Notes: generated by a model from the sequence alone, not told the origin. DNA of 64,000 bases from an uncultured cyanobacterium (GCA_937944885.1 CALFBB010000003.1:1-64000); one strand, 5' to 3'. Numbered from the stretch's first letter, positions 1 to 64,000 are shown. Numbers and translations: made by a program.

Positions 1-142
1 CAGGTTCAGTTGTACCTTGCCAAGCAGGTCTCATGTTTGCCAAGGCCTCCAGAAGTCTTTTCTGGCGGGCAATAGTGCCATACTTGATTAGAAGAGTTGT
101 GTCACATCCGCCCCTAACTAGCGAACGACGCTTCCCGTCCAT
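1..142 (-). CDS. Possible truncated reading frame at the left edge
   Basis: An open frame of about 47 codons starts with ATG at 142 and runs leftward off the window without a stop. Its product begins MDGKRRSLVRGG and is basic. I do not recognise a family, and no clear ribosome binding site precedes the ATG. It could be the start of a gene lying left of the window, or chance. Confidence 0.2.
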   Translation of the reverse strand, partial: MDGKRRSLVRGGCDTTLLIKYGTIARQKRLLEALANMRPAWQGTTEP

Positions 143-452
143 TCGTAGGATGCGCGGCGGCGTTGCTCAAAGACACAAAAATCAATGACACAAAAAATCC
201 TTGCCCTGTTTTCTCTAGCTTGATCTTCAGCGTAAATTGATTTAAGTAGAGGAATACCGGCAGGAACGAGTTGGGTCGCTGAAACCCCGCTTTATTGCCA
301 TCGAGTTGCTGCTGGGATCCCTGCCTGACAGGGTTGCCAAAGGCTGTAGCATTTCCGAAGAGGACAGAGATGCGATAAGATCAACTGGCCCAACATAGGG
401 TGGGTCATCACTCCCAAGCTTCCTTGCCGATCAACCCATCGGGGCAATCCAT
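143..452. other. Intergenic region upstream of tRNA-Thr
   Basis: This stretch of about 310 bases has no convincing gene. It contains a short direct repeat of GACACAAAAA near 170-196 and one GGGATCCC near 316. It presumably includes the tRNA-Thr promoter, but I cannot single out its elements. Confidence 0.4.
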
Positions 453-525
453 GCTGATGTAGCTCAGTTGGTAGAGCAGCTCACTCGTAATGAGCAGGTC
501 GTCGGTTCGAGTCCGATCATCAGCT
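453..525 (+). tRNA. tRNA-Thr(CGU)
   Basis: A complete cloverleaf can be folded by eye. The acceptor stem GCTGATG pairs with CATCAGC, the D stem GCTC with GAGC, and the anticodon stem GCTCA with TGAGC. The seven-base loop CTCGTAA gives anticodon CGT, which reads the Thr codon ACG. The T arm carries TTCGAGT. The discriminator base is T and the 3' CCA is not encoded. Confidence 0.95.
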
Positions 526-651
526 TTCTGACCCTACGCCCTTGGGTATCTGAGAACTGGGCTTGACCACAGGGATCAGGATCAACCCAACCTACCCTGT
601 CAGATGTTAGGCTAGGATTCTTCTGGATTGGGTGCTTGCTCTGCTGGCCCT

Positions 652-1848
652 ATGACTGTCCCCCTACCTGTTGCAGGAGCTCCACACACCCTAACCCAGC
701 CTGGCTGGCCGGAAGCGGTTTATCTACACATTCCCTTTTGTCGTCAGCGCTGTTACTACTGTGATTTTGCAACCGGTTTAGGCACCCAAGATCTGATCGA
801 AACCTATGTGCAAATGCTTTGTCGGGAAATCAGCAACCCCGCCCGCTACTCGCATTTGTCTGGAGAGCCTAACCCTTTGACCAGCATTTTTTTCGGTGGT
901 GGCACACCTTCTCTCCTGACAGTCGAGCAAGTGGAACGAATCTTACACACTTTGCAGGAGAGGCTCCCCTTTCATCCTCAGTGCGAGATTTCCTTGGAGG
1001 CCAATCCCGGCACCCTTACTCCAGCTCAATTGTCGGGTTATCGAGCTTTGGGCATTAACCGTATAAGCCTAGGGGTACAAGCTTTTCAAGCGGAGTTGCT
1101 GGCTGTTTGTGGTCGCTTACATGGGGTAGAAGAGGTCTATGAAGCTCTTCACGATCTGCGGGCTGCAGGGTTCAATAATTTTAATCTGGATTTAATTTTT
1201 GGTCTACCTCATCAAACATTGGAACATTGGCAGGAGTCCTTGCAAGCTCTGTTGGAAATTTACCCTACCCACGTCTCTCTCTATGACTTAACCCTTGAAT
1301 CCGGCACTAGGTTTGGCAGGCTCTACCGACCGGGAGATGCACCTTTACCTTCTGAAGAAACTACGGTTGAAATGTACCTGATGGCACGAGAGCTGCTCAC
1401 TCAAGCAGGTTATATTCACTATGAAATTTCTAACTTTGCCCACCCTAAATTTCAATGTCGCCACAATCGTGTCTATTGGGAAAATCGACCTTACTTCGGT
1501 TTTGGCATGGGATCGGTTGGTTATGAAGCGGGCCGGCGCATCCAACAGCCTAAAACCCTTTATGCTTACTTTGAGCAGGTGAAAGCCGGGATCCACCCTT
1601 TACCTCCTAAAACCACGCCAGAGGAAGCTTGGATGGATACTCTCATGTTGGGGTTAAGGCTTCAAGAAGGTCTGGATCTCGCCAGTTTACAAGCCAGCTT
1701 TGGTGAGGGGAAGGTCAAGCAAGCCTTGGATAGGCTGGATCCCTACTTTAAGAAGGGGTGGGCCAGTTGTGAAGGAGGTCAGCTACGACTGAACCCACCC
1801 GATGGATGGCTGTTTTCCAATGAGATTCTCAAGGATTTATTCGATTAG
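652..1848 (+). CDS. hemW: HemW-like radical SAM protein (HemN/coproporphyrinogen oxidase-like family)
   Basis: The protein is a radical SAM enzyme of the HemN/HemW family. The [4Fe-4S] motif CxxxCxxC is visible as CRQRCYYC near the N-terminus, followed by FFGGGTPS and EANPGT. HemW proteins of about 380-400 residues act as heme chaperones rather than true coproporphyrinogen dehydrogenases, and this length (about 398 aa) fits. The open frame extends to a TTG at 628, but ATG 652 is the more natural start. The gene stands alone after tRNA-Thr and is convergent with yajQ. Confidence 0.9.
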   Translation: MTVPLPVAGAPHTLTQPGWPEAVYLHIPFCRQRCYYCDFATGLGTQDLIETYVQMLCREISNPARYSHLSGEPNPLTSIFFGGGTPSLLTVEQVERILHTLQERLPFHPQCEISLEANPGTLTPAQLSGYRALGINRISLGVQAFQAELLAVCGRLHGVEEVYEALHDLRAAGFNNFNLDLIFGLPHQTLEHWQESLQALLEIYPTHVSLYDLTLESGTRFGRLYRPGDAPLPSEETTVEMYLMARELLTQAGYIHYEISNFAHPKFQCRHNRVYWENRPYFGFGMGSVGYEAGRRIQQPKTLYAYFEQVKAGIHPLPPKTTPEEAWMDTLMLGLRLQEGLDLASLQASFGEGKVKQALDRLDPYFKKGWASCEGGQLRLNPPDGWLFSNEILKDLFD

Positions 1849-1934
1849 ACCCGAAGTGATTCAGGTGGCTCACTCAATTGCTTGGCTCAAAGGGAATAAG
1901 CTTAGGCTCTGCCCCCTCCCAAAATCGGCGTCCC

Positions 1935-2426
1935 TCAGCGGTAATTCACAAATTGCAGCGCCACCGGGTAGTCCTGCTGTTTGAGCATCTGGATGACCGC
2001 TTGCAGATCATCTTTATCCTTGGCCGAGACCCGGATCAAATCCCCCTGAATGGAAGGCTGCACCTTTTTGAAAGTATCCCGGATTTGCTTGGAGATCTGT
2101 TTGGCGAGGGCGGCATCAATGCCTTTCTTGAGCCGCACAACTTGGCGAACTCGGTTGCCACTGGCGCTTTCCGGAGCCTGAAAATCAAAGATCTTGAGGG
2201 ATAAACCCCGTTTGGCGGCTTTAGTGCAGAGAATATCTTGAATCGAGCTGAGGGCCATCTCGCTGGCAGTGGTAATGGTCAGGGATCCCTCGCCTAGCTC
2301 GATCTGTGTTTGCGTATCCTTCAGATCATAGCGCTGTTTGATCTCCCGCTGGGCTTGATCCACAGCGTTGACCAATTCCTGACGATCAAAATCGCTGACA
2401 ATATCAAATGAATAGGTGGAGGCCAT
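1935..2426 (-). CDS. yajQ: YajQ family (DUF520) nucleotide-binding protein
   Basis: The 163-residue product has the start [14 protein letters not shown] and the [17 protein letters not shown] segment typical of the YajQ family. These small cytoplasmic proteins have two ferredoxin-like half-domains; family members have been reported to bind nucleotides, including cyclic di-GMP in some bacteria. The length matches the family (about 160 aa). It is convergent with hemW, with 86 bases between their stops. A role in this organism cannot be read from context. Confidence 0.92.
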
Positions 2427-2543
2427 AAGACTGATTCTGACTGCCGTTCAGTATCATAAGCCCTAGCTCTGACAAAGGGATCCCTTGCTTCCTGAGAAGC
2501 TAGAACAGAGGGAAAGCCATCAGCAAACCTGCGGAGAAGAGTT

Positions 2544-3935: not shown

Positions 3936-5262
3936 GCTCCCCTTCCGGGCCAGAGGCGAGATGCCTGAGTATCAGCAGCAGCAAAGCCAGTACCAAGGCC
4001 ACTTCTGACACCAAGGTGGCTGAAGCTGCCCCCCGCCAGTCCCAAATGGGGATCCAGAACCCATTCAACAGACCGTTTAGCCCCAGGGCCAGCAGTTGTA
4101 GATGACTACGGGGTTTCTGTAGGCCTGCCCCCGTCAGCACATGGGAAAGCAGCAGGTGGATCCCTTCTAGCAAAATCACCGGGCTGAGCCAGCGCAGGAT
4201 CAAGGCCGTTTCTTGGTAAGCGGATCCCAAGACCCAAGGGATCCCGTAGGATGCCAGCGCTAATCCCAGGCTGGCTAAGCTGCCGTACCCCAGTACCCAA
4301 GGGGAAAGTTGCCAGGCGTAGTTGCAGCTGTGCTGCAGCCCTTTTTGTCCCTGCCGACAGATCTCGGCAAAGTGGCTGGTGAGCAGAGCAATCATCGGTG
4401 TCTGGGAAAAATTAATCAAACGATAGGCAGCGCCATAAAGACCTGCTGCTGTTGCCGAGGCCAGGCGGGGCAAGAGCAACTTATCCAAGTCAGTGAAGGT
4501 CTTAACCGCCGCCAACCCGACGGCAAAATCCCAACCTGCTATTAGCCGCTCCCGCAGATCTTGCCAGTTGAAGGGGCTAGCTGGGTTCACGACTGGCTGA
4601 GTCCAGCGCCTCGTACCCCAAGCGGTGAGCAGCAGCACAGCCAACACCATCAACCCGTACAACACAGACCATTGGTCCAGGGATCCCCACCCCAAGGCCA
4701 CGGCTATCAACACAGCACTGACTCGGCCCATAGCCATACCGGTATCGATCAGGGCCACATCGGCAATTTGTTCCCGTGCGATTAGCAGACCCTTTTGCAC
4801 CTCTTGCACACCGATAAAGAGCAGATCCGCCAGCAGGAGCAAACCAACCACCGGCGCCGGAGTCCCTGCCAGCCAAAAGCTCAAGAGCGGCCACAAGAAC
4901 AGGGCGATGCCCCCACAACCCAAGCTGGCCAGCCACAGACTAGGACCAGCTGCATCTACAGCAGTAGAGAGCCTGGGGGATCCCGGCAGATCACCCTCCT
5001 GTCGGCTCAACCGCTGAATCAACAGCTCTGACTGCCCGAAATAGCCGAAGGGAGCAGCAAGGTTGCTGCAGGCCAAGATGGCAGAAAATACTCCAAAAGA
5101 TTCCGGTCCCAATAGCCGTGCCAAAACAATGAAATAGGTGCCCGACAACCCCAGGCGCAACCCATTGCCCACCATGAGCCAGGCGGCCTGCCGGAGCCGC
5201 CGTTGTTGTTCAGCCTTGGCTTCTTCCCTTATCTTTGCAATCGGATCAGCTTGCCGAGCCAT
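3919..5262 (-). CDS. Lipopolysaccharide/O-antigen flippase-like membrane protein
   Basis: The product of about 447 residues is a polytopic membrane protein with roughly a dozen hydrophobic segments. Its first transmembrane region resembles polysaccharide biosynthesis (Wzx/MATE-superfamily) proteins, with the typical LARLLGPESFGVFSA segment. Such proteins flip lipid-linked oligosaccharides across the inner membrane. The open frame reaches 5355, but ATG 5262 just before MARQADPIAK puts the start close to the first membrane helix and leaves a 98-base divergent spacer to mrdA. The exact substrate is unknown. Confidence 0.8.
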   Translation of the reverse strand: MARQADPIAKIREEAKAEQQRRLRQAAWLMVGNGLRLGLSGTYFIVLARLLGPESFGVFSAILACSNLAAPFGYFGQSELLIQRLSRQEGDLPGSPRLSTAVDAAGPSLWLASLGCGGIALFLWPLLSFWLAGTPAPVVGLLLLADLLFIGVQEVQKGLLIAREQIADVALIDTGMAMGRVSAVLIAVALGWGSLDQWSVLYGLMVLAVLLLTAWGTRRWTQPVVNPASPFNWQDLRERLIAGWDFAVGLAAVKTFTDLDKLLLPRLASATAAGLYGAAYRLINFSQTPMIALLTSHFAEICRQGQKGLQHSCNYAWQLSPWVLGYGSLASLGLALASYGIPWVLGSAYQETALILRWLSPVILLEGIHLLLSHVLTGAGLQKPRSHLQLLALGLNGLLNGFWIPIWDWRGAASATLVSEVALVLALLLLILRHLASGPEGEPRRTE

Positions 5263-5360: not shown

Positions 5361-7226
5361 ATGGCCAAACTTTACCCTGTCGACAACCGGAAAACCTTGT
5401 CTTCTCCCCATTCCAGCCCTCGTACCTCCCACCGGGTTATTCCTGCTTTACCCCGGCAGACTAGCACCCCCCATTGGCAGGGATCCCCGCCCGCCAAAAC
5501 CGTCGGCCAGAGTTATCGAGCCATTGTGCTGCTGGTGTTGAGCAGCCTATTGATTTTGGCAGGTTTGGGATCCCGGTTGGCCTACATTCAGCTGGTGCAA
5601 ACCCAGTATTACCGCCAGTTGGCCGATACCAACCGCATCCGACTGTTGCCGCAACCACCAGAACGAGGCCGCATCCTCGATCGCAATGGGGTGCTATTGG
5701 CAGGCAGCCAATTGTCCCACTCCGTCTTTCTCTGGCCCCTGGCCCAATCACAGCAACGTTGGCAGGAGATGATCCCAAAGCTGGCCCAGTACCTGCAAAT
5801 TGCCCCAGAAGAGATCACCCAAAAGCTGGAACAAGCCGGCTATCGCTCTCCCTTTCCGGTTCGGGTTTTGCGCAACGCCAGCCCCCAGGTGATCACTCAA
5901 CTGGAGGAAATGAGCCGCGAACTGCCGGGAGTAATGGTGGAAGCAGAAACAGTACGGCTTTATCCGCATGGGGATTTGGCGGCCCATTTGCTTGGCTACA
6001 CCGGCGAGATCCCGCAAGAACAACTGCAAGCCAATCCCGACTATCGGCTGGGGGATATTGTCGGTTTGATGGGGGCAGAGGAATTGTTTGAAGCCCATCT
6101 GCGCGGCCAATGGGGGGGGCGGCAGATGGAGGTGGACGCCATGGGAGAAGTCCTGCGGGTGCTAGGAGAACAGGCCCCCCAACCAGGGAAAACGCTACAA
6201 CTGACCCTGGATGTGCGCCTGCAGCAGGTAGCTGAGCAAGCGCTAGACAAGCGCAAAGGGGCGGTTATTGCCATGGATCCCCGCGATGGGTCGATCTTGG
6301 CTATGGCCAGTTATCCCACCTTTGATCCCAACCTGTTTTCCAGTCGCATCACCCAAGCTCAATGGGACGCTCTCCAGCAGCAGGACTTTCCCTTTCTCAA
6401 TCGCGGTATGCGTGCTTATCCTCCCGCTAGCACCTACAAGATCATCACCACCGCTGCTGGTATTGAGTCGGGGATCTTTCCCCCGGATACCGTGCTGCAA
6501 ACGGCTCCCTATATCCAGGTAGGGGGCTGGCGCTTCTGGGATTGGAACCGGGCCGGATTTGGACGGCTGAATTACCGACAGGCAATGGCCTACAGCAGTG
6601 ACACCTTCTTCTATCAGATTGCCCTTGGCACCAAAGCCGCTCCCCTGCAGGAATGGTCGCGCCGATTTGGGCTGGGGCAACCGACCGGAATCGGGCTAAA
6701 GGGAGAGTCTCTAGGTTTGGTTCCCGATGCTGATTGGAAGCAGCGGCACTGGCGCGAACCCTGGTATGTAGGAGATACCGTGAACATGTCCATTGGTCAG
6801 GGATTTGTGACAACTACTCCCTTGCAAATGGCAGTGGTTACGGCGGCGGTGGCCAATGGCGGTTGGCGGGTACGCCCCCTACTCTCCCGGCAGGTGATCC
6901 CCGATAGTCCGGTACCCCTGCGGCAGTCGGTGGGCCTTTCTGCGGCAACACTGCAAATTTTGCAGCAGGGACTGCGGGACGTAGTGGTCTACGGCACCGG
7001 CGGCAATGCCAACTTAGGGTCAGGCTTTCCCCCAACGGCGGGCAAAACCGGCACGGCAGAAGACCCGCCGCGACGCTCCCATGCTTGGTATGTCGGCTAT
7101 GCTCCCTATGACCAACCGGAGCTGGTAGTCGTGGTGTTCTTGGAAAATAGCGGTGGAGGTGGTGGGGCGCGGGCAGCACCGGTCTTTCGAGAGGTCATGC
7201 GGGCCTACTTCCAGCTGCAGTCCTGA
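5361..7226 (+). CDS. mrdA: Penicillin-binding protein 2 (elongasome transpeptidase)
   Basis: The 621-residue protein is a class B penicillin-binding protein that crosslinks peptidoglycan during side-wall growth with the MreB-RodA machinery. A basic, Pro/Ser-rich cytoplasmic tail of about 52 residues leads into one transmembrane helix (about 53-75). The dimerisation region contains RGRILDRNG. The three active-site motifs are STYK (about 357), SSD (about 412) and KTG (about 562). It is divergent from the flippase-like gene and followed by HU about 290 bases downstream. Confidence 0.93.
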   Translation: MAKLYPVDNRKTLSSPHSSPRTSHRVIPALPRQTSTPHWQGSPPAKTVGQSYRAIVLLVLSSLLILAGLGSRLAYIQLVQTQYYRQLADTNRIRLLPQPPERGRILDRNGVLLAGSQLSHSVFLWPLAQSQQRWQEMIPKLAQYLQIAPEEITQKLEQAGYRSPFPVRVLRNASPQVITQLEEMSRELPGVMVEAETVRLYPHGDLAAHLLGYTGEIPQEQLQANPDYRLGDIVGLMGAEELFEAHLRGQWGGRQMEVDAMGEVLRVLGEQAPQPGKTLQLTLDVRLQQVAEQALDKRKGAVIAMDPRDGSILAMASYPTFDPNLFSSRITQAQWDALQQQDFPFLNRGMRAYPPASTYKIITTAAGIESGIFPPDTVLQTAPYIQVGGWRFWDWNRAGFGRLNYRQAMAYSSDTFFYQIALGTKAAPLQEWSRRFGLGQPTGIGLKGESLGLVPDADWKQRHWREPWYVGDTVNMSIGQGFVTTTPLQMAVVTAAVANGGWRVRPLLSRQVIPDSPVPLRQSVGLSAATLQILQQGLRDVVVYGTGGNANLGSGFPPTAGKTGTAEDPPRRSHAWYVGYAPYDQPELVVVVFLENSGGGGGARAAPVFREVMRAYFQLQS

Positions 7227-7928: not shown

Positions 7929-9080
7929 ATGTTTTGGCCTCAGCATGGTGGCAATCGGGCTTGGGGAGCAGCCGTTGCTGGCTGTTCTCCTGCTGATATT
8001 CTTGATTTCTCAGCTAGTTTGAACCCACTTGGGCCACCCCAGTCGGTCTTACAGGCTCTGGGTAGGGCTTTATCTGAACCGGATCCGGTTGCTATCAGCC
8101 GCTATCCTGACCCTGAGTATTGGCGGCTACGTACCCGTCTGGCTCAGTATTGGGCTGTGGATCCGGAGTGGATTTTTGTGGGCAATGGAGCAGCAGAGTT
8201 GCTGACCTGGGCGGCGCGGGATGCGCAGGGGCGGGAGGTATGGCTGCCTAAGCCTGCTTTCGGTGAGTATGAGCGGGCGCTGCAGGCAGCGGGTGCAATC
8301 ATTAAGCCGTTGGGTGGGGAGAATAGCGGGGGATCCCCTATGCCTTCGGTGGAACAGATACCGCCCTCCGGACGAGGCAACCGGATTCTCTGGCTGAACA
8401 ATCCCCACAACCCCAGCGGCAGATTAATTCCACGCCAGGAGATTCTGGCACTGCTGCCCCAGTTTCAACAGGTAATGGTGGATGAAGCCTTTATGGATTT
8501 TCTACCTGGGGATGATCCTCAGGATCACTGCAAAGGTGAGATAGAAAAAGGTGAGATAGAAACAGAACCCTCCAGTAGCCAAACCCTGATCCCCCACTTG
8601 GCAGCCCATCCCAACACAGTCGTGATTCGTTCCTTAACCAAGTTTTATACATTGCCAGGGCTGCGTATCGGCTTTGCGGTAGGACACCCCGACCACTGGC
8701 GGCGTTGGCAACGCTGGCGGGATCCCTGGAGTGTCAATGGCTTGGCAGCAGTAGCAGCGGAGGCGGCCTTAGCGGATGAATCGTTTCGTCGGCGGACCTT
8801 GGCCTGGTTACCCGTAGCCCGAGAACACCTGCGCAAGGGTTTACAAGCGCTCCCAGGTTGGGATCCCTGGCCCAGTCAAGCCAATTTTGTGTTGGTTCGT
8901 TGTCCAGGTTCGGCAACCCAAATCCAACGGGCCCTTCTGCAACGGCATCGTATCCTGGTGCGGGACTGCCTCAGTTTCTCAGAGTTGGGGGATCATTACT
9001 TGCGCATTAGCCTACGTACCCTGCCCGAGCAAGAACAGTTGCTATCCGCCTGTCGGGAAATCCTGGACAATAGCGATTGA
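7929..9080 (+). CDS. CobD/HisC-type PLP aminotransferase (threonine-phosphate decarboxylase-like)
   Basis: This fold-type I PLP enzyme has the HGGN start (WPQHGGNRAW) typical of L-threonine-O-3-phosphate decarboxylase CobD, which makes the aminopropanol linker of cobalamin. It is close to histidinol-phosphate aminotransferases, so the substrate is not certain. The PLP lysine sits in SLTKFYTLPGLRIGF. A 15-bp tandem duplication at 8532-8561 gives KGEIEKGEIE, a low-complexity insert after the conserved DEAF segment. ATG 7929 is preferred over TTG 7920. The downstream gene starts about 24 bases after its stop. Confidence 0.8.
   Translation: MFWPQHGGNRAWGAAVAGCSPADILDFSASLNPLGPPQSVLQALGRALSEPDPVAISRYPDPEYWRLRTRLAQYWAVDPEWIFVGNGAAELLTWAARDAQGREVWLPKPAFGEYERALQAAGAIIKPLGGENSGGSPMPSVEQIPPSGRGNRILWLNNPHNPSGRLIPRQEILALLPQFQQVMVDEAFMDFLPGDDPQDHCKGEIEKGEIETEPSSSQTLIPHLAAHPNTVVIRSLTKFYTLPGLRIGFAVGHPDHWRRWQRWRDPWSVNGLAAVAAEAALADESFRRRTLAWLPVAREHLRKGLQALPGWDPWPSQANFVLVRCPGSATQIQRALLQRHRILVRDCLSFSELGDHYLRISLRTLPEQEQLLSACREILDNSD
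8532..8561 (+). repeat. 15-bp tandem duplication inside the CobD-like gene
   Basis: The unit AAAGGTGAGATAGAA occurs twice head to tail without a mismatch. It keeps the reading frame and encodes KGEIE twice. It looks like a recent slippage event in a surface loop. Confidence 0.9.
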
Positions 9081-19090: not shown

Positions 19091-20248
19091 CTAGGCATCT
19101 ACCGTTCGACCTTTTTCCGGAAAGAGGCCGCGAGGGCGAAATTGTAAGAACACCACAATCAGGGCAAATACCATCACCTTGGCCATGCTGGTGGTGGCAA
19201 AAAAGTTGAGGGTATCGGTCAAAATGGGAACGCCCGGAAAGATCAAGGCCAAGGTACCAGAACCGATTAAAAAGTTGGCAATGCCGATACCCAAAGCGGC
19301 CACAATGCTGCCCAAAAGCTTGCCGACACCCCCCACCACCACCACCATGAAGGTGTCCACGATGTAGTTTTGACCGGTATTGGGCCCCACGGATCCCAGT
19401 AAGCTAACCGCAACCCCTGCTACACCCGCCAGACCTGAGCCAATGGCAAAGGTGAGGGCATCTACCGTTTGGGTCGGGATCCCGACACAGGCACTCATGG
19501 CGCGATTTTGGGTCACTGCCCGGATCCGCAGCCCCCAGCGGGTATGCTGCAGAAAAATGTACAGCCCAAGGATGCAGACAAGGGTGAGACTGATAATAAA
19601 CAGGCGCGTATTGGGCAAGAAGAGCTGACCCACCGGGATCCCGCCCCGCAGCCAACGGGGTGCTGTTACATCTCTGTTTTGCGCCCCAAACCAGGGCTGT
19701 GTAACCGCCAGGGCATAGGTTTGCGCCAGCAGCCGCCCACCCACGGTTCCAATCGCTGTGGAAAGCACCAGTAACAGGGTGAGAACCCATCCTTTGATAC
19801 GTGGCCAATCCACCCGTTTAGCCAGCAACCACCAACCCCCAAAAAACAGCAACCCAAATACCCCCAACCGTAAAGCCAGCACCCAATTGACGCTGCGGAC
19901 AAACTGCTGCAGGATTAGGCTTACTCCCCAGGTAGCCAATAGGGTTTCCAGTGGACGACCGTAGAGGAAGCGAATCACTGCCCGCTCGAGGATTAACCCC
20001 ACCAGCGCTGCCACCCCAAAAGCAGCCACTAGAGCTGGAAAGATATAGAAATCCCGCCAGGGATCCCCCCATTGCCGGAAGACATTTTGCACCACAAAGG
20101 TGGTATAGGCTCCCAGCATCATCAGCTCCCCATGGGCCATGTTGATGACGCCCATAAGGCCAAAGACAATCGCCAGCCCTAAAGCCGCCATCAGCAGCAC
20201 GGTGCCGATACTGATGCCGTTAAATAAACTGTCAAACAACAGGGTCAT
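19091..20248 (-). CDS. urtB: Urea ABC transporter permease UrtB
   Basis: UrtB is the LivH-type permease subunit of the urea transporter. The 385-residue product has the characteristic GLAIVFGLMGVINMAHGELMMLGAY segment and AIGSGLAGVAGVAVSLLGSVGP. A long central insertion with extra hydrophobic stretches (about residues 120-200) makes it longer than amino-acid LivH proteins, as I recall for cyanobacterial UrtB. ATG 20248 is preferred over the track start 20269. Confidence 0.93.
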   Translation of the reverse strand: MTLLFDSLFNGISIGTVLLMAALGLAIVFGLMGVINMAHGELMMLGAYTTFVVQNVFRQWGDPWRDFYIFPALVAAFGVAALVGLILERAVIRFLYGRPLETLLATWGVSLILQQFVRSVNWVLALRLGVFGLLFFGGWWLLAKRVDWPRIKGWVLTLLLVLSTAIGTVGGRLLAQTYALAVTQPWFGAQNRDVTAPRWLRGGIPVGQLFLPNTRLFIISLTLVCILGLYIFLQHTRWGLRIRAVTQNRAMSACVGIPTQTVDALTFAIGSGLAGVAGVAVSLLGSVGPNTGQNYIVDTFMVVVVGGVGKLLGSIVAALGIGIANFLIGSGTLALIFPGVPILTDTLNFFATTSMAKVMVFALIVVFLQFRPRGLFPEKGRTVDA

Positions 20249-23542: not shown

Positions 23543-24388
23543 GTGCCAGAGCTGCCGGAAGTTGAAACGGTTAGGCAAGATTTGCAAAGCCTTACCCTAG
23601 GGCAAGTTGTGCTAGGGGTAGAGGTGCTCTTGCCACGTACCATTGCCTACCCGACGCTGCGCGAGTTTCGACAAAGCTTGGTTGGTACTGGCTTTACCGG
23701 TTGGCAACGGCGGGGAAAGTATTTGCTGGGATCCCTGGATTCTGGGGCCTGTTTGGTTGTGCACCTGCGCATGACTGGACAGATGCTCCGGCTTAAAAGC
23801 TCCCTGCCCTTGTCAGCTCATACCCGTGTGCGTCTGCGCCTGGAGGGGGAATGGGATCTGCGCTTTGTGGATCAGCGCAGCTTTGGTCAGATGTGGTTAG
23901 TGCCTGCCGGCGTAGCCCCAGAGCAAGTGGTTACAACTCTGAAAACATTGGGACCCGAGCCCTTTGCCACGGCCTTTTCCGACAGTTATTTGCAAAAAGC
24001 CTTGCAACGGAGCAAGCGCTCCATCAAAGCTGCGCTGCTAGATCAATCTTTGGTAGCCGGGGTCGGCAACATTTACGCCGATGAAGCTCTATTTTTGAGT
24101 AGCATCCACCCGGCAACCCCTGCATTTCAGCTCTCCAGCCCTGCCATTGTCCGTCTACGGGAGATGTTGCTTCAAGTCTTGCAGACAGGTTTGGCGCAAC
24201 GGGGAACCACCTTGCGGGATTACCGGGATCTCAATGGGCTGAATGGCAACTACCAGGGGCAAGCCTGGGTTTATGGTCGAGAAGGGGATCCCTGTCGGGT
24301 ATGCGGCACACGGATTCAGCGACTAAAACTGGCAGGGCGCTCGGCCCACTTTTGTCCCTGCTGTCAACCGTCCCCCAACGATGGCTAA
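23543..24388 (+). CDS. mutM: Formamidopyrimidine-DNA glycosylase
   Basis: MutM/Fpg excises oxidised purines such as 8-oxoguanine and nicks the DNA. The protein starts with the catalytic PELPEVETV, using GTG 23543. It has the LVVHLRMTGQM segment, a helix-two-turn-helix with DQSLVAGVGNIYADEALF, and a C-terminal zinc finger with CRVC and CPCC. The length of 281 aa is standard. Its 3' end overlaps the next gene by 8 bases. Confidence 0.95.
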   Translation: MPELPEVETVRQDLQSLTLGQVVLGVEVLLPRTIAYPTLREFRQSLVGTGFTGWQRRGKYLLGSLDSGACLVVHLRMTGQMLRLKSSLPLSAHTRVRLRLEGEWDLRFVDQRSFGQMWLVPAGVAPEQVVTTLKTLGPEPFATAFSDSYLQKALQRSKRSIKAALLDQSLVAGVGNIYADEALFLSSIHPATPAFQLSSPAIVRLREMLLQVLQTGLAQRGTTLRDYRDLNGLNGNYQGQAWVYGREGDPCRVCGTRIQRLKLAGRSAHFCPCCQPSPNDG

Positions 24389-34220: not shown

Positions 34221-36422
34221 TTAACCGGCCAGGACAGACCCGTATAGACCGGGCTGAGCTCCGGCAGGCACAGACTCCGGCTCATACATCTTCAACACAT
34301 ACTCCTTCACCATGCGGTCAGTGTTGAAGACAGGGTTGAGGGTGCGAATTGCCTCTTTCATGCGGGCCACCCAGCGGCGCGGGATCCCCTGCTCATCCCG
34401 GTCGTAGAACATGGGGATCACCTCATACTCCAGCAGATCGTAGAGGGAATTGGCATCCAAATCATCTTGGGCCGCCGGGTCAAGGCCATCGATTTCTTGG
34501 CCAATAGCCCAGCCGTTACGACCGTTGTAGCCTTCCGGCCACCAGCCATCCAGAACCGACAAATTCAACCCACCGCTAAAGCCCACTTTCTGCCCTGAGG
34601 TACCGGAAGCTTCCAAAGGGCGACGTGGGTTATTCAGCCATACATCCACCCCTTGCACCAAGTTACGGGCCACATAGGCATCGTAATTTTCAATAAAGGC
34701 AATGCGATCCGCCACCTCAGGCCGGTTCGACCATTCCACCACCCGTTGGATCAGGCGTTTCCCTCCCTCATCCCGTGGGTGAGCCTTACCGGCGAAGATA
34801 ATTTGAACCGGATAGTCTTTGTTGGTGAAGATGCGGTTGATCCGCTCCATGTCCCGTAGGATCAGATCCCCTCGCTTATAAGTGCTGAAACGGCGGGCAA
34901 ACCCAATGGTGAGGATCTTTGGATCCAGCAGATGCCCCACCGCCTGAATGCGCTCATTGGGTTCGCCACGATTACGTCGGGCCCGCAAAACACGGTGACG
35001 GGTAAAAGACACCAGACGCTCCCGTAAAGCTGCTTTACGCCGCCACAACTCCTCATCGGGAATGTCATTCACCCTAGCCCACACCTCAGGGTCTGAGATG
35101 CGCTCCAGCCAATCCGGCCCCAAGTATTGGTCGTAGAGATTCCAGAAAAGGGGCGAGATCCAGGTGCGAGCGTGAACACCATTGGTAATCGAGCCAATCG
35201 GCACTTCATCCACAGACCGATCCGGGTAAAGCACATGCCACATTTCGCGGGATACCCGTCCGTGCAGCTTACTCACCCCATTGGCCGCCCGTGCATAGCG
35301 CAAAGCCAGCACCGTCATGTTAAAGCGCTCCCAGGGATCCCCGCTGCGCCGAGCCCCTAAGGCCAAGAATTGCTCCCGCGTCAGACCCAATTGCGGCCAG
35401 AAGGAAGCAAAGAAAGCATCCATCTCATTGGGACTAAAAGCATCGTGACCCGCCGGCACAGGGGTATGAGTGGTAAACAGACATTTCTCCCGAACCTTCG
35501 GCTCTGCCGCCAAAAAGGGCGTTCCGCGGGCAACTTCTTCCCGCAACAGCTCCAAAGTTAGGAAAGCGGCATGTCCCTCGTTCATGTGGTAGACCGAGGG
35601 ATCCAAGCCCAACTGGCGCAACAGCCGCACCCCCCCGATACCGAGGATGCACTCTTGGGCAATGCGAGTATCGGTGCTACCCCCGTAGAGATGAGCCGTG
35701 ATCCAGCGATCAATGGGGTCATTTTCTTCCAGATCGGTATCCAGCAAAAAGAGGGGCACTCGACCCACATCCACTCGCCAAGCCCGGGCCTTAACCATTC
35801 GCTGCCGCATCGCCACCTCCACCATCAGAGGACAGCCGTCAGGACGGCGTACCAAAGTGAGGGGCAGCAACTCCACTTCAGAATCCTCATAGAGCTCCCC
35901 CTGCCAGCCACTGTTATCGAGGCGCTGTTGGAAGTAGCCCTGACGGTAGAGCAATCCAATCGCCACCATCGGCACACCCAAATCGGAGGCAGACTTAAGA
36001 TGATCAGCCGCCAACATACCCAAACCACCGGAGTAGGTAGGCAAAGACTCGTGCAAGCCATACTCGGCACAGAAGTAGGCAATCGGGTGCTGCCAGTCAT
36101 AGGATTTCATGGTGCGCTTAGCCCAGGTATCCTCGGCGGCCATGTAGGCCCGGTAGGATTGCACCATCCGTTGCAAAGTGGCTAAGTAATTGACATCCGT
36201 GGCCAAAGCTGCCAGCCGCAAATAGGAGACCTCCTCCAGCATCCGTACAGGGTTGTGGGAGGTTTTCTCCCACAAAGCCGGATCCATTTCCCGAAAAATG
36301 GTCAGGTGATCCGGGTTCCAAGTCCACCAATAGTTGCGGGCGATCTCGCACAACGGCATCAAAGCCTCGGGCAGTGCGGGACAACGCTCGGGAAAAGCAG
36401 GGGCTAGGGTGGCAATGGACAT
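34221..36422 (-). CDS. glgP: Alpha-glucan phosphorylase (short form)
   Basis: The enzyme releases glucose-1-phosphate from glycogen. The 733-residue product belongs to the short alpha-glucan phosphorylases (GT35): it shows YFCAEYGLHESLPTYSGGLGMLAADHLKSA, FTTHTPVPAGHDAF and EASGTSGQKVGFSGGLNLSVLDGWW, with the PLP lysine near 612. It is about 100 residues shorter than the classical enzymes and lacks their regulatory regions. It works with glgX at 11-13 kb. Confidence 0.93.
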   Translation of the reverse strand: MSIATLAPAFPERCPALPEALMPLCEIARNYWWTWNPDHLTIFREMDPALWEKTSHNPVRMLEEVSYLRLAALATDVNYLATLQRMVQSYRAYMAAEDTWAKRTMKSYDWQHPIAYFCAEYGLHESLPTYSGGLGMLAADHLKSASDLGVPMVAIGLLYRQGYFQQRLDNSGWQGELYEDSEVELLPLTLVRRPDGCPLMVEVAMRQRMVKARAWRVDVGRVPLFLLDTDLEENDPIDRWITAHLYGGSTDTRIAQECILGIGGVRLLRQLGLDPSVYHMNEGHAAFLTLELLREEVARGTPFLAAEPKVREKCLFTTHTPVPAGHDAFSPNEMDAFFASFWPQLGLTREQFLALGARRSGDPWERFNMTVLALRYARAANGVSKLHGRVSREMWHVLYPDRSVDEVPIGSITNGVHARTWISPLFWNLYDQYLGPDWLERISDPEVWARVNDIPDEELWRRKAALRERLVSFTRHRVLRARRNRGEPNERIQAVGHLLDPKILTIGFARRFSTYKRGDLILRDMERINRIFTNKDYPVQIIFAGKAHPRDEGGKRLIQRVVEWSNRPEVADRIAFIENYDAYVARNLVQGVDVWLNNPRRPLEASGTSGQKVGFSGGLNLSVLDGWWPEGYNGRNGWAIGQEIDGLDPAAQDDLDANSLYDLLEYEVIPMFYDRDEQGIPRRWVARMKEAIRTLNPVFNTDRMVKEYVLKMYEPESVPAGAQPGLYGSVLAG

Positions 36423-44985: not shown

Positions 44986-46347
44986 CTACTGGGCGAGATC
45001 CCATCCTAAGCACTTTTGCATGACCTGCCCCAGTAGGTAAAGGGATCCACACAGCACAGGGGGAGGCTCCTCTGGGGTACTCGGCTGGGAAAGCTGGGCC
45101 AAAAAAGCCGATAGATCGGGCAGCACTTGTACATGAGCAAGGTGAGGTTGTCGCTCCTGGGCTAGTTGTGCCAGTTGTACGGGATCCACACCGGCATGAT
45201 CTGCAATCGGCAGTGTAAACAGGCGATCGCCCGGGCGGAGCAAGGTGCTTAGAATGCCAGCCACATCCTTGGTGCTCAAGATGCCGATGTACCAGGTGAG
45301 GGGGCCGGGGTAATGTTCATCCAAGTAGTGGCGGAGGGCTTGGGCCGCAGGTAAGTTGTGGGCACCGTCCATTAGCAATACCTGGGATCCAATCTGCACT
45401 CGCTGCAGGCGCCCCGGCCAACGGGTGAGAGCAAACCCTTTTTCTACGGCAGCATCTGGGATCGACCAGCCCTGGTCTCGCAGAGTTTGGATAATCTCTA
45501 GGGCGACTGCAGCGTTGATCAGCTGAACATCCCCGACAAGGGGCAAGTGAAGGGAGAGTCCTTGCCAGTTCACCCTCTGGGGCCCCGACCATTGCAAGGG
45601 TGCGGCCATGCGCACCGAGATCCGCAACTGTTCCGCTTTGGCGTCAATCACCGACTGCACCTCTGGGGTTTGCGGTGCGCATACCAAGGGGATGCCTGCC
45701 TTGAGAATGCCCGCCTTTTCAGAGGCAATTTGCGGCAGGCTGTTGCCCAAACGCTGCCAGTGATCCCAACCAATGGAGGTAATTGCCGTAACAATCGGAT
45801 CAATCCCAGCATTGGTGGCATCCAGTCGTCCTCCTAGGCCCACCTCCAGCACCACGACCTCTACCGCCTGCCGGCGAAAATACAACCAGGCTGCAGCTGT
45901 TACCACCTCAAACTGCGTAGGAGAGGGCTCGTCCGGGAGGTAAGCCTGCAAGGTATCCCGTACCTGAGCCAACACCTGGCTCCAATCTTCAGGGGAGATA
46001 TACTGCCCATTTAGCCAGATGCGCTCCCGCCAGTGCACCAAATGGGGGGAGGTATAGCGACCGACGCGATAGCCTGCTGCCCACAAAACATGGCTGACCC
46101 AAGCACAAACGGATCCCTTGCCGTTGGTACCCGCCACATGAATCACCGGGATCCCAGCCTGGGGTTGTCCTAAGCGTTGCAACAACACTTGCATCCGCTC
46201 TAGGCTGAGATCCACGCCAAAGTGGCCTAGCGACTCCAGAAAACCCGGCCAATCCCAATCAGTAGAGATTCCATCCCGGATGGGAAAAAAGATCAACGGC
46301 AGATCCTTTTGGCTCAAGTTTGTCACCCTAGCAAAAACAGATTCCAC
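44986..46347 (-). CDS. folC: Folylpolyglutamate synthase/dihydrofolate synthase
   Basis: FolC adds glutamates to folates and, in many bacteria, also makes dihydrofolate. The 453-residue product has the Mur-ligase-type P-loop HVAGTNGKGSVCAW, the TSPHLVHWRERI segment, VVLEVGLGGRLDATN and VLLMDGAHNLPA. It starts at GTG 46347. It runs in the same direction as serA, which lies upstream of it. Confidence 0.93.
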   Translation of the reverse strand: MESVFARVTNLSQKDLPLIFFPIRDGISTDWDWPGFLESLGHFGVDLSLERMQVLLQRLGQPQAGIPVIHVAGTNGKGSVCAWVSHVLWAAGYRVGRYTSPHLVHWRERIWLNGQYISPEDWSQVLAQVRDTLQAYLPDEPSPTQFEVVTAAAWLYFRRQAVEVVVLEVGLGGRLDATNAGIDPIVTAITSIGWDHWQRLGNSLPQIASEKAGILKAGIPLVCAPQTPEVQSVIDAKAEQLRISVRMAAPLQWSGPQRVNWQGLSLHLPLVGDVQLINAAVALEIIQTLRDQGWSIPDAAVEKGFALTRWPGRLQRVQIGSQVLLMDGAHNLPAAQALRHYLDEHYPGPLTWYIGILSTKDVAGILSTLLRPGDRLFTLPIADHAGVDPVQLAQLAQERQPHLAHVQVLPDLSAFLAQLSQPSTPEEPPPVLCGSLYLLGQVMQKCLGWDLAQ

Positions 46348-50780: not shown

Positions 50781-50993
50781 TCAGTTGTCGTAAACCCGAC
50801 ACTCAACAGCATCTGGATTTTCGGCACAGTGCTGCTCCAGACTACTTGGAGTAGTGGGTTGGTGACTGCGGGCCGCTAGGACCTCTTCTACTGCATCCCA
50901 GGCAGCACGGCAGTGGGGATCCCCTTCACCAAACTCGGAACAGATCTTACGAGCGTTCTCCAGTTCTTTGGCAATAACGTCAGACAGTCCCAT
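50781..50993 (-). CDS. CP12 domain protein
   Basis: CP12 is a small disordered protein that, when its cysteines are oxidised in the dark, ties GAPDH and phosphoribulokinase into an inactive complex and switches off the Calvin cycle. The 70-residue product has the AWDAVEEVLA helix and C-terminal SLEQHCAENPDAVECRVYDN with the cysteine pair. The N-terminal cysteine pair is also present (KICSEFGEGDPHCRAAWDAVEE). The gene is monocistronic. Confidence 0.92.
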   Translation of the reverse strand: MGLSDVIAKELENARKICSEFGEGDPHCRAAWDAVEEVLAARSHQPTTPSSLEQHCAENPDAVECRVYDN

Positions 50994-57700: not shown

Positions 57701-60613
57701 CTAGTCCTCCAACCAAGGTTGGCAACTACAAACCAAATGCCGATCCCCGTAGGCATTGTCAATGCGACTAACGCTCGGCCAAAACTTGTGGGCTTTGACC
57801 CAAGGGGCAGGGTAGGCCGCCAGCGAACGGGAATAGGGACGATCCCAGTGATCCGCTGCCACCACCGGGGCAGTGTGAGGGGCTAATTTGAGGGGGTTAC
57901 GTAAGGGATCCATTTCCCCCCGTTCAATAGCAGCAATCTCCTGGCGAATGGCAATCATGGCCTCACAAAAGCGATCCAATTCTTCTAGAGACTCACTCTC
58001 GGTGGGTTCCACCATCATGGTGCCTGCCACTGGCCAAGAGATCGTCGGGGCATGGAAACCGTAGTCCATCAGCCGCTTGGCTACATCCTCCACTTCAATG
58101 CCGGCACTTTTTTTCAGGGGGCGCAAATCCAGAATGCACTCATGGGCCACCCAGCCGCCGGATCCCTTGTAAAGCACGGGGTAATAGGGATCCAAGCGCT
58201 TGGCAATGTAGTTGGCATTCAAAATGGCCACCTGGGTTGCTAGGGTGAGGCCGGCGGATCCCAGCAGGCGGATGTAGACCCAGGGGATCGGCAAGATACT
58301 GGCACTTCCCCAAGGGGCGGCACTGACTGGGCCATTGCACCCCGGTAAGAAAGGATGACCGGGCAAATAGGGCAACAGATGGGCGGCTACCCCGATCGGC
58401 CCCACCCCTGGGCCACCGCCCCCGTGGGGGATACAGAAAGTTTTGTGCAGATTTAAATGGCAAACATCGGCCCCCAGCTCAGCAGGACGACAGAGACCCA
58501 CCTGGGCATTGAGATTGGCCCCGTCCATGTACACCTGCCCACCGGCCTCATGCACAATTCGGCAAATGTCACGGATCCCCTCTTCAAATACTCCATGGGT
58601 AGAGGGATAGGTAATCATCAAAGCCGCCAGCTGGTGGCGGTGCTGCTCCACCTTGGCCTGTAAATCCGCCAGATCAACATTGCCTGCCCCATCACAGGCG
58701 ACACTGACCACCCGCATCCCTGCCATGACCGCACTGGCCGGGTTAGTGCCGTGGGCAGAGGTGGGAATTAGACACACCTGCCGATGCCCTTCTCCGCGAG
58801 CCTGGTGGTAACGGCGAATGGCCAACAGCCCGGCGTATTCTCCTTGGGAGCCGGCATTGGGCTGGAGAGAAATCCCGGCAAAGCCGGTGATCTCCGCTAA
58901 CATCTGTTCCAGTTGGGCAAATAGCTTTTGGTAACCGCGCGCCTGCTCCAAAGGAGCAAAAGGGTGAAGCTGAGCAAACTCCGGCCAGGTAACCGGCAGC
59001 ATCTCCACGGTGGCATTCAGCTTCATGGTGCAAGAACCCAGCGGGATCATGGAGTGGGTCAGCGACAAATCCCGACTTTGTAAGCGGTGGATATAGCGCA
59101 GCAGCTCCGTTTCCGAGTGGTAGCGGTTGAAAACGGGGTGGGTGAGATAAGAGCTGGTGCGAATCAAAGCAGAGGGTAAACTTTGGCTAAGAGGGGGATC
59201 CCCAATCTCCTCCAACAGGGATCCGGTAAACACGTAGAACAGATCCCGTAGATCCTTGGAAGTGGTAGCTTCATCTAGGGTTAGCCCCAAGGTTTGCTCA
59301 TCAATTTGACGGAGATTGATCCGCTGTTCAACGGCACGAGCTTGAATCTCTTGGAGTTGGGCAGGGGATGGGCTTTTCACCCAGAAGGTATCGAAGAAGT
59401 GCTCCGGCCCCACCTCGTAGCCTGCCTCACGCAGCTTAGCTGCCAAGTTGTGGGCCTGTTGGTTAATGCGCAGCGCCATCTGACGCAACCCTTTGGGGCC
59501 GTGGTAGATGGCGTACATGGAAGCCATCACCGCCAAAAGCACCTGCGCCGTACAGATGTTGCTGGTGGCCTTATCACGGCGGATGTGTTGTTCCCGGGTT
59601 TGTAAAGCCAGCCGCAGTGCCGGATTGCCTTCGGCATCTTGGGAAACCCCCACCAGGCGTCCCGGCAGGAGGCGCTTGTGTTCGGTGCGGGTAGCAAAAT
59701 AAGCAGCGTGGGGGCCCCCATACCCTAGGGGAACACCAAACCGCTGGGTGGATCCCACCACAATATCAGCTCCCCATTCCCCCGGCGGTTGGAGCAAAGT
59801 GAGGCTAAGGAGATCCGCCGCCACGGTTACTTGGATCCCCTGTTGGTGAGCCTGCTTCACCAACTCGCGGTAGTCGCGAATTTCACCATAGGTATTGGGG
59901 TATTGCAGCAACAATCCAAAACCGGCCTGATCCAAGCAAAACTCCGCCGGATCCGCCACCCGAATCTGGATCCCCAAGGGTTCAGCCCGTGTTTGCAGCA
60001 CCGCTATGGTTTGGGGGTGACAGCCTCGATCCACCCAAAACAGCCGGGATCCCTGGCGAGCCAGCCCATAACTGAGGGTCATGGCTTCTGCAGCTGCCGT
60101 GGCTTCATCCAGCAACGAAGCATTGGCAATCTCCATGCCCGTCAGGTCAATCACCATCGTTTGGAAATTCAACAGGGCCTCTAAGCGTCCCTGGGCAATC
60201 TCCGCTTGATAAGGGGTGTACTGGGTGTACCAGCCGGGGTTTTCCAGAATGTTGCGCTGAATCACGGGCGGAGTGAGGCAGTTGGCGTAGCCCATGCCCA
60301 AAAAGGAGCGCCACACCTGGTTTTGAGCAGCAATTTCCTTGAGCTCCGCCAACACCTGCTGCTCGCTGCGTGGGGATCCCAGTTGCAGAGGCCGTAGGGT
60401 ACGAATTGCTGCCGGTACAGCTTTCTCCGTCAATTCCTGGAGGGATCCCAGCCCTAAAGCCTGCAGCATCTGCCCAATCTGCTCTATATCCGGGCCAATG
60501 TGCCGCCTCACAAACTGCTCTGGCTGCTGAAGAAGCTCTAGTTCAGGGGATTGGGGTTGCTCCTGCGCAGAAGAGATGGCAGGGGCTGGATTGAGAATGG
60601 CAGAGTCAGTCAT
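57701..60613 (-). CDS. gcvP: Glycine dehydrogenase (decarboxylating), P-protein
   Basis: GcvP decarboxylates glycine in the glycine cleavage system and is important for photorespiratory glycolate metabolism in cyanobacteria. The 970-residue product is the full single-chain P-protein, with [17 protein letters not shown] near the start, [31 protein letters not shown], and the PLP lysine in [18 protein letters not shown] (about 724). gcvT and gcvH are not adjacent. It is divergent from psbU with a 131-base spacer. Confidence 0.97.
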
Positions 60614-60744: not shown

Positions 60745-61167
60745 ATGTTATTGCTCAATCAGATGAGACTCTTGAATCCTGTTCGGAGAAGTGGTGTTAT
60801 GCGTTGTCTGCTGTCCGCCCTTGTTCGCATTCTGTTAGTTCTGTGCCTGAGCTTTGCCCCCTTGGGAATTCTGGGTGTGGCTCATGCTGCACAACTCCCT
60901 GCTGTGAAGCATCTGGATACCCCGATTGATGTCAACAACACCATTTTGCGTAACTATCGTCAACTACCGGGTTTCTATCCCACCCTGGCGCGTATTTTGG
61001 TTCAAAATGCTCCGTACAGCAGCTTAGAGGATATGCTGCAGATCCCAGGCCTGACAGAAGAGCAAAAAGCTTTGATCAAGGCCAATGCCGAGAACTTTGT
61101 CATCGGCGAATATCAGGAGGGAGCTAACCAGTTGGAAAACCGCATCAACCAGGGCTACTACGGCTAA
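60745..61167 (+). CDS. psbU: Photosystem II 12 kDa extrinsic protein
   Basis: PsbU is a lumenal extrinsic subunit that stabilises the oxygen-evolving cluster and adds thermal tolerance. The 140-residue product has a signal peptide with a hydrophobic core ([23 protein letters not shown]) ending near AHAAQLP. The mature domain carries [48 protein letters not shown] lies just before ATG 60745. Confidence 0.95.
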
Positions 61168-61228
61168 TTCCGGCGCTGTGAGGGGAATTGCTCATTTGAC
61201 TGCCTTCTTACTGAGTTAAGGAGGCAGC

Positions 61229-62260: not shown

Positions 62261-62311
62261 CTCCTGTCGGCTCGGAATTCTGGTGCAACCTCACTTATCC
62301 GACTCGGCTCT

Positions 62312-63391
62312 ATGAAACTGCCACGGGTGCTGATCTGTGGCTACTATGGCTACGGCAATGGTGGCGATGAGGCGTTGTTGCTGGCCCTCCTGCAGCAGCT
62401 CCAACAGTTGTCTGTTCCCGTGCAGCCGGTGGTACTCTCTCGTCAGCCTGCCCAAACGGCAGCCACCTACTCGGTCTTAGCTTGCCCTCGCTTTAACGGG
62501 TTGGCTCTCCAGCGTTGTTTACGGGAGGCCAAAGCTTTTGTTTGGGGTGGAGGCAGCCTGTTGCAGGATCGCACCAGCTGGCGAAGTCCTCTCTACTACC
62601 TGGGGGTGATGGGCTTGGCTCAACAACTGAAGCTCAAAACTTTTGCCTGGGCCCAGGGGATAGGCCCGCTGGATCGAGGGTGGATCCGCTACTTGGCACG
62701 ACACTCCTTGGCGGGTTGTACGGCCGTAAGTGTGCGCGACAAAGTCACCTCAGCATTACTGGAAAACTGGGGGATCCCTCACCAAGTGGCTCCGGATCCG
62801 GTATGGGGTTTAACGGCCAAAAGGCTACCAGAATGGGATAGCTGGCCACAACCCCGTATTGCAGTGGTATTACGCCAGCACCCTCACCTGACACCGGCTC
62901 GCCTAGAGGCCATCAGTCAGGGACTGAGACAACTACAAGCTTCTACCGGCGCCTATTTCTTGTTTATTCCCTTCCAGTTAGCTCCCCAGGGATCCCCAGA
63001 TCTAGGGGCCGATTACCGCTTGGCTCAGGATTTGCAACAGCGTATGCCTGGCCATAGCCAGATCCTGGAAATTCGGGATCCCTGTTTGCTGAAGGGGAGT
63101 TTCCGCGGGGTAAGCTTGGTGATTACAATGCGCTACCACGGCTTGGTGATGGCAGCAGCAGAGGGCTGTCGTTGCTTTGGTCTTAGCTATGACCCCAAGG
63201 TAAGAGCTTTGTTGCAAGAGTTACACATGCCTGGCTGGGAGTTGGAAACCTTTCCCACGGAGGTAGAAACTCTGCATCAGCATTGGTTAGCCTGTTACGA
63301 GCAGGGTTTAGCCCTTACCCCTGCGGATATTCAGGCTTGGGTCCGGCGTTCTGCCCGGCACGGGGACCTTCTCAGACAGCATCTAACCTGA
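62312..63391 (+). CDS. csaB: Polysaccharide pyruvyl transferase CsaB
   Basis: CsaB adds a pyruvyl ketal to cell-wall or surface polysaccharide, which in some bacteria anchors S-layer proteins. The 359-residue product has the family start RVLICGYYGYGNGGDEALL, VWGGGSLLQDRTSWRSPLYY, AWAQGIGPL and VITMRYHGLVMAAAEG. It starts at ATG 62312, 51 bases after the Rpn-family gene, on the same strand. Confidence 0.92.
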   Translation: MKLPRVLICGYYGYGNGGDEALLLALLQQLQQLSVPVQPVVLSRQPAQTAATYSVLACPRFNGLALQRCLREAKAFVWGGGSLLQDRTSWRSPLYYLGVMGLAQQLKLKTFAWAQGIGPLDRGWIRYLARHSLAGCTAVSVRDKVTSALLENWGIPHQVAPDPVWGLTAKRLPEWDSWPQPRIAVVLRQHPHLTPARLEAISQGLRQLQASTGAYFLFIPFQLAPQGSPDLGADYRLAQDLQQRMPGHSQILEIRDPCLLKGSFRGVSLVITMRYHGLVMAAAEGCRCFGLSYDPKVRALLQELHMPGWELETFPTEVETLHQHWLACYEQGLALTPADIQAWVRRSARHGDLLRQHLT

Positions 63392-63500
63392 GAAGAGCCG
63401 TCCCAGCTTGCCACCGCCAGCCCCCTCACTGATCCGATTGGGAACAGGGGAAAGACGGGGTTACTGCTTTGGTTAAGATCACAGCCTATCTATTCATGTC

Positions 63501-64000
63501 ATGCCCTCTATGACTGCACAAGTCCACCCCCTTACCCGCACAGAAGTTCTGAGCGCCCTGATTCTCACCAGTGGGAGTTTAACTCTCCTAGCTGGTCTAT
63601 GGGGTTGGCTGGGATCCGTACCCATTCCATTGTTTTGGGATCCACTAGCGCTGTTGTGGGGATGCGGGTTAGGGCTAGGGGTAATTTTGCTCAGTGAGCT
63701 GGTTTATCAGGCTTGGCCTGCTTACCGTCAGGCTGCCCGTGCCTATCTGGGCTTGGTGGTGGATCCCTTGCAATGGGGGGATGTGTTTTGGCTGGGCCTG
63801 TTGCCGGGTTGGAGCGAGGAATGGTTGTTCCGTGGCGTGTTGGTCTCGGTAGCTGTGGCCGGCCCCCTGGGCTGGATAGGGGGGATCCTCTGCAGCAGTC
63901 TTTTGTTTGGGGCGCTGCATTTGCTGGAATGGCGGGGCTGGCCCTATGCCTTCTGGGCTACTCTCGTTGGGGTGCTGCTGGGTTTGGGGTTGTGGCTTTC
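63501..64000 (+). CDS. CPBP-family intramembrane protease, cut by the window edge
   Basis: The frame runs off the window's right edge after about 166 codons. Several hydrophobic segments surround the motifs EEWLFRGVL and FGALHLLEWRG, the catalytic Glu-Glu and His of CPBP (Abi, type II CAAX-like) intramembrane glutamic proteases. ATG 63501 or 63510 is the start. It is missing from the ORF track because it has no stop in the window. Confidence 0.85.
   Translation, partial: MPSMTAQVHPLTRTEVLSALILTSGSLTLLAGLWGWLGSVPIPLFWDPLALLWGCGLGLGVILLSELVYQAWPAYRQAARAYLGLVVDPLQWGDVFWLGLLPGWSEEWLFRGVLVSVAVAGPLGWIGGILCSSLLFGALHLLEWRGWPYAFWATLVGVLLGLGLWL

Follow-up and report, generated by a model that had tools for sequence, protein, structure and literature searches.

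The octamer GGGATCCC replaces HIP1 as the dominant palindrome in an uncultured cyanobacterium and persists site by site in its relatives

The highly iterated palindrome (HIP) HIP1, GCGATCGC, is an octamer built around GATC that most cyanobacteria use and that occurs about once per kb in its hosts; what function HIP elements serve is a question that dates from the 1990s. According to a passage in PMC6604393 that cites Xu et al. (2018), HIP1 is maintained by selection. Elhai (2015, PMC4390886) reported a matching methylase for every HIP, and in the same work (Table 2, rows t, u) no octamer ranks above GGGATCCC in JA-3-3Ab and JA-2-3B (Synechococcus OS types A and B), where it reaches 1160 and 1345 copies per Mb, with HIP1 at an observed-to-expected ratio (O/E) of 1. 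Here we examine GGGATCCC in a stretch of 64,000 nucleotides from an uncultured cyanobacterium (GCA_937944885.1 CALFBB010000003.1:1-64000; hereafter the window), in the genome to which it belongs (G000) and in relatives of that genome. The replacement of HIP1 by GGGATCCC is an already published phenomenon, and the window's species, a cyanobacterium of hot-spring type, is a further congener of the published pair. Our additions are a clade boundary with a motif-free relative, a core-plus-flank grammar, the persistence of individual sites, an effect on tripeptides, and the finding that neither the tested methylases nor MutL track the motif.

The excess of GGGATCCC and the scarcity of HIP1 are real and genome-wide. 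The window holds 62 copies of GGGATCCC, where Markov models of first, second and third order predict 2.2, 4.0 and 9.7, and 165 copies of GGATCC against Markov expectations of 22 and 50. Among palindromic octamers GGGATCCC far outnumbers every other one there, the runner-up being CTGGCCAG with 8 copies. A sequence-only reading of the window had counted about two dozen GGATCC and eleven GGGATCCC in the first 10 kb and noticed HIP1 only twice; an exact scan bears this out, with 24 and 12 copies in the first 10 kb and HIP1 at 2 copies in the whole window, none of them in that part. Across the genome (2.82 Mb, 54.6% GC) we found 3,094 copies of GGGATCCC (1098 per Mb, or about one per 900 bases) against 73 of the reversed-string control, and only 29 of HIP1 (O/E 0.9 in our sample). 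In that sample, 806 kb including the window, the O/E of GGGATCCC was 33 relative to a first-order Markov model. The genome-wide check proposed by the sequence-only reading, for counts near expectation or for HIP1 being common elsewhere, therefore turned up neither, and its claim that GGGATCCC has taken over from HIP1 was right, if already in the literature (Elhai 2015, PMC4390886). In each of the five sampled genomes, octamer-rich or not, GATC itself exceeds its first-order expectation by a factor of about 2.2-2.5. Copies are evenly spread over the window (9, 9, 9, 5, 5, 8, 8 and 9 in successive 8-kb segments), and gaps between sites are near-Poisson (coefficient of variation 1.005), apart from slightly too few gaps below 50 bp and slight clustering at 20 kb; regular spacing was rejected.

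In these respects GGGATCCC behaves as a HIP: it is a GC-rich palindromic word with a huge genome-wide excess, it is found where HIP1 is low, and its density falls in the range of about 500-2500 per Mb typical of the class, both here and in the motif-rich relatives (1158-1431). It is an alternate HIP rather than HIP1 proper, since its inner base pair differs from that of GCGATCGC.

Among 390 cyanobacterial genomes drawn from the class, more than 1000 copies per Mb were found only in the window's genus, where all six species carry about 1100-1370, and in one sister genus of the same family (G007, about 1430). Two of the five same-genus relatives (G001-G005) have 1158 and 1344 copies per Mb, matching the published values. 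We take these two to be JA-3-3Ab and JA-2-3B (the latter being G004), an identification that the agreement in density supports. The published pair and the window's genome are alike in octamer, density and near-absence of HIP1; the sister genus lies outside that pair, and a motif-free basal relative was not described with it. Such a relative is a third genus of the family (G006), whose 4.4 Mb hold 392 copies of GGGATCCC (89 per Mb) and 121 of HIP1; within 312 kb of it, GATC stands at 2.35 times first-order expectation and no HIP of any kind stands out. In the neighbouring family, G008 (5,066,637 bases), presumably Synechococcus PCC 7336, has 17 copies of GGGATCCC and 8,312 of HIP1. The highest count outside the family was 608 in 5.6 Mb, with a control count of 461.

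A gcvP tree that included outside cyanobacteria placed G006 outside G007 plus the window's genus (support 97/92), and a mutL tree with G008 gave the same arrangement weakly (67/70, with a long-branch warning). With good support from one gene tree and weak support from the other, GGGATCCC would seem to have had a single origin on the stem of the two sister genera. On the simplest reading, it arose there in an ancestor from which HIP1 was already gone or was disappearing. For in-place conversion of HIP1 to GGGATCCC the aligned sites were too few (GATC stood in the window's genome at 1 of 11 HIP1 positions of G008). One order thus offers a natural experiment: seven of its genomes have GGGATCCC, G008 has HIP1 and G006 has neither, which allows the cause to be looked for among genes that one branch acquired or altered.

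GGGATCCC is a DNA-level signal with the hexamer core GGATCC, whose sites persist across species and genera. Around GATC in the 806-kb sample, G at -1 and C at +1 occur together 2,219 times against 1,727 expected (odds ratio 3.5); the corresponding odds ratio is 9.0 in G007 and 0.84 in motif-free G006 (312 kb sampled in each). Given the GGATCC core, outer G and outer C are each present at 64-65% of sites in the window's genome and at 60% in G007, against 24-29% at GATC without the core, and the two are independent of each other (919 observed, 924 expected; odds ratio 0.96-0.99). The unit is therefore a coupled hexamer to which the two outer bases are added separately. HIP1 is alike in being an octameric palindrome around GATC at about one per kb with a coupled core and extra outer G and C: in G008 and in a pool of twelve named cyanobacteria, the inner flanks of CGATCG are coupled (odds ratios 2.4 and 7.7), and only where the core is present is there an excess of outer G and C (0.62-0.82 against 0.22-0.30), the outer sides in the pool being not fully independent (odds ratio 2.0). 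The outermost bases of the two octamers are equal; they differ in the inner pair, C..G in HIP1 and G..C in GGGATCCC. Chi sites and DNA uptake sequences are also short over-represented genomic words but, unlike GGGATCCC, are not known to be perfect palindromes around a Dam site.

Site by site, 65-76% of the window's copies are identical in the five congeners (77-83% identity), as against 15-26% of all octamers, and larger alignments gave 66-79% kept from the window's genome and 81% between G002 and G005. This exceeds what codon identity explains: codons wholly within the motif and with a conserved amino acid were identical in 61/67, 83/87, 56/59, 60/63 and 78/82 cases, where the same codons elsewhere predict 40.0, 59.6, 36.3, 38.2 and 58.8 (p = 7e-8 to 2e-10; the five comparisons share ancestry and are not independent). 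In the other genus, G007, 20 of 55 sites were kept (36%) against 7% of octamers. Sites that are one base off between orthologues mostly retain GGATCC. Their differences fall mostly at positions 1 and 8 (23/32 and 25/37) and only three times per pair at the central AT, so that deviation is greatest at the outer bases, as in other HIPs, and for this octamer rarest at the centre.

The motif also leaves its mark on proteins. Coding copies in the window use all three reading frames (19/16/19), which, together with the conserved site at 50916 that lies outside called open reading frames (Table 1), shows that the motif is not a peptide or single-codon effect. The sequence-only reading held that protein sequence tolerates the motif; this is right but understated, as protein sequence is shaped by it too. 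Over 207,000 codons of the window's genome, 237 of 272 Gly-Ile-Pro tripeptides (87%) are written GGG-ATC-CCn, where codon usage predicts 41; the proportion is 141/148 in G002 and 9/29 in motif-free G006. Gly-Ile-Pro ranks first of 4,164 tripeptides by over-representation (O/E 5.55), and 129th of 1,692 in G006. Its frequency, 1.32 per 1000 residues against 0.37 in G006, indicates that motif pressure also changes amino acids; a DNA word can thus raise a tripeptide to first rank in a proteome. Open reading frames were called mechanically, which adds noise with no obvious bias.

Table 1. Copies of GGGATCCC and HIP1 in the window, located by exact match scan; presence in the five same-genus genomes was read from ortholog alignments.
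Feature	Position	Context	Congeners with site
GGGATCCC	4238..4245	coding, Gly-Ile-Pro frame	5/5
GGGATCCC	4680..4687	coding	5/5
GGGATCCC	5567..5574	coding, penicillin-binding protein 2 gene (5361-7226)	5/5
GGGATCCC	8719..8726	coding	5/5
GGGATCCC	8860..8867	coding	5/5
GGGATCCC	19476..19483	coding, Gly-Ile-Pro frame	5/5
GGGATCCC	19635..19642	coding, Gly-Ile-Pro frame	5/5
GGGATCCC	20060..20067	coding	5/5
GGGATCCC	23728..23735	coding	5/5
GGGATCCC	24285..24292	coding	5/5
GGGATCCC	34381..34388	alpha-glucan phosphorylase gene, Gly-Ile-Pro frame	5/5
GGGATCCC	35334..35341	alpha-glucan phosphorylase gene	5/5
GGGATCCC	50916..50923	outside called open reading frames, no assigned protein frame	5/5
GGGATCCC	60373..60380	glycine dehydrogenase gene gcvP	5/5
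HIP1 (GCGATCGC)	33767..33774	one of only two in the window	
HIP1 (GCGATCGC)	45223..45230	second of only two in the window	
GGGATCCC, starts 1-16 of 62	314, 2282, 2477, 4238, 4680, 4977, 5480, 5567, 7911, 8330, 8719, 8860, 10506, 11526, 12661, 13906		
GGGATCCC, starts 17-32 of 62	14731, 15115, 16679, 19476, 19635, 20060, 21972, 22442, 22816, 23502, 23728, 24285, 25985, 29107, 29140, 31010		
GGGATCCC, starts 33-48 of 62	34381, 35334, 38264, 38569, 38722, 40743, 41594, 41894, 42040, 42414, 43876, 46148, 46786, 48303, 49221, 50085		
GGGATCCC, starts 49-62 of 62	50916, 51258, 51729, 51896, 54603, 56359, 59195, 60046, 60373, 60442, 62223, 62771, 62989, 63075		

The best explanation in our view, which we hold with a confidence evenly poised between yes and no, is that an alternate HIP replaced HIP1 once and that a putative reader of GGATCC at Dam-type GATC keeps the sites in place. 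Such a factor would read GGATCC around the GATC as a symmetric unit, would make weaker, additive contacts to the outer bases, and would exert a selection or biased repair that retains each site. The step from HIP1 to GGGATCCC may then have altered just the inner base pair (G-C-GATC-G-C to G-G-GATC-C-C), which would amount to a new core specificity of the reader. The more specific proposal that a lineage-specific protein, gained after the split from G006, recognises GGATCC at Dam sites and took the place of an earlier HIP1 reader is a tentative one, and we would sooner doubt it than adopt it. If it were true, HIPs would be the sites at which a chromosome-wide protein binds, with a specificity that one base pair can switch, and the gene for the reader could be found by comparing G007 and the window's genus with G006.

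Several points weigh against a reader that retains each site. No candidate for it was found, and at the scales tested nothing in the gaps between sites points to a spacing function. Persistence alone could result from selection on each site or from a bias of mutation or repair by which sites are protected. Moreover, G006 is a draft assembly, 91% complete with 5% contamination, and its motif-free status rests on that draft.

Given the central GATC that GGGATCCC shares with HIP1, the sequence-only reading had thought a common cause in methylation or repair conceivable. Here GATC is indeed a Dam site in almost every relative, but such a cause is unproven: Dam is also present in motif-free G006, motif-rich genomes differ in Dam type, and MutL is found in all nine genomes tested, motif-rich or not. 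A Dam-type protein (PF02086), the candidate methyltransferase for part of the sequence, is full length in G001, G002, G004, G005, G006 and G008 and near full length in G007; in G003 it is cut by a contig end. The window's own genome yielded no Dam; contig C28 begins there close to where dam would be expected, and synteny with G005 breaks off at this contig start, which makes an assembly gap the likely reason. Compared by eye, without a tree, the proteins of G002, G004, G005 and G006 are alike, that of G001 is different, and that of G007 resembles that of G008; the same type thus occurs with and without the motif, and different types occur with it. PF02086 was the only one of three methylase families tested that is common to most motif-rich genomes, and none of the three (PF01555, PF00145, PF02086) has a distribution that tracks the motif. 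Nor does the presence of MutL follow that of the motif, and mutH has been reported absent from all cyanobacteria (PMC5101192). As observations apart, the Dam-type protein of G001 is so clearly unlike those of its congeners as to look replaced by transfer. At one point in the dam-like gene lies an insert that varies: it differs between G002 and G005, and in G003 three copies of an HRVSVAEQ-coding repeat at this point run into the contig end.

The rival that survives best, though we consider it unlikely, is that the motif is driven by an unrecognised GGATCC-specific DNA methyltransferase or by a restriction-modification relic, comparable to the CGATCG methylase with HIP1. The HIP1 core is the site of a widespread methylase, found in most hosts, a methylase was matched to every HIP (Elhai 2015, PMC4390886), and the hexamer-core grammar of GGGATCCC is similar to that of HIP1. 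By contrast, no such GGATCC partner was found in the families tested: the cytosine-methylase families PF01555 and PF00145 are not common to motif-rich genomes and have no matches in single-contig G004 or the window's genome, and PF02086, which by its relationship to DmtA should recognise only GATC, also occurs in G006. A GGATCC methylase may yet belong to a family beyond these three.

Neutral, memoryless replenishment, in which mutation bias makes sites come and go while only their total is kept, appears improbable. Of Gly-Ile-Pro tripeptides 87-95% are encoded by the motif, and this alone would make sites overlap strongly between species. However, where a Gly/Arg/Trp-Asp-Pro tripeptide is conserved, having the motif in one species is predictive of having it in the other: counts for both, first only, second only and neither were 18/2/1/7 (p = 2e-4), 20/1/1/7 (p = 4e-5) and 15/2/4/7 (p = 0.01) in three pairs that share species, and four-fold sites in those pairs are only 57-67% identical. 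It follows that sites are not simply refilled at random.

Still less probable is a GmeC-directed mismatch repair ratchet, in which a newly arisen GC on the daughter strand is methylated and so biases repair toward the palindrome (Elhai 2015, PMC4390886). This model explains HIP1 and three other alternate HIPs, its set point agrees with a density near 1 per kb, and independent filling of the outer flanks is what a ratchet working one side at a time should produce. Yet GGGATCCC has no GC dinucleotide, so the published model as written is not applicable to it, and Elhai (2015, PMC4390886) used it for other alternate HIPs but not for GGGATCCC. In addition, no tested cytosine methylase family is common to the clade, and G006, which lacks the motif, has MutL just as well.

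A shade lower again we rate a very-short-patch-like repair that would bring back C in place of T at GGATCC and so create the excess. In one species pair, C/T changes made up 9 of 25 outer-position changes against a background of 63% (p = 0.007), but two other pairs with enough data were not significant (11/23 and 20/36). Outer C>T variants were not clearly depleted either, with O/E values of 6.3 against 8.1 and 12.4 in the window's genome and 9.2 against 8.7 and 10.0 in G007. The C/T signature was strong in a small one-direction count within the window and faded in larger alignments read in both directions. A depletion of GGACCC, considered as a sign of T-to-C repair, is explained by a general avoidance of GGWCC. 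Lastly, an artefact of composition or codon usage, for which a GC content of 54.6% and a roughly 2.3-fold excess of GATC throughout the family might be cited, is already refuted by the 33-fold first-order excess, by 73 reversed controls to 3,094 copies, by the 237 motif-encoded Gly-Ile-Pro seen where codon usage predicts 41 of 272, and by G006, which has similar GC and no such excess.

Other words are biased in these genomes as well. GGWCC, an AvaII-type site, is strongly avoided, the O/E of GGACC/GGTCC being 0.27 in the window's genome, 0.01 in G007 (7 on both strands of 312 kb), 0.05 in G002, 0.09 in G005 and 0.55 in G006; this looks like restriction avoidance, though the window's genome has no PF00145 match. 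In G007, GAGCTC, GGCGCC, CCGCGG and TGCGCA are nearly absent (2-4 copies against 75-109 expected) and many methylase fragments are present, which suggests several restriction systems. Motif-free G006 has an excess of CTGCAG (356 copies in 312 kb against 142 from a first-order Markov model) and a depletion of CCTAGG, ACTAGT and GCCGGC.

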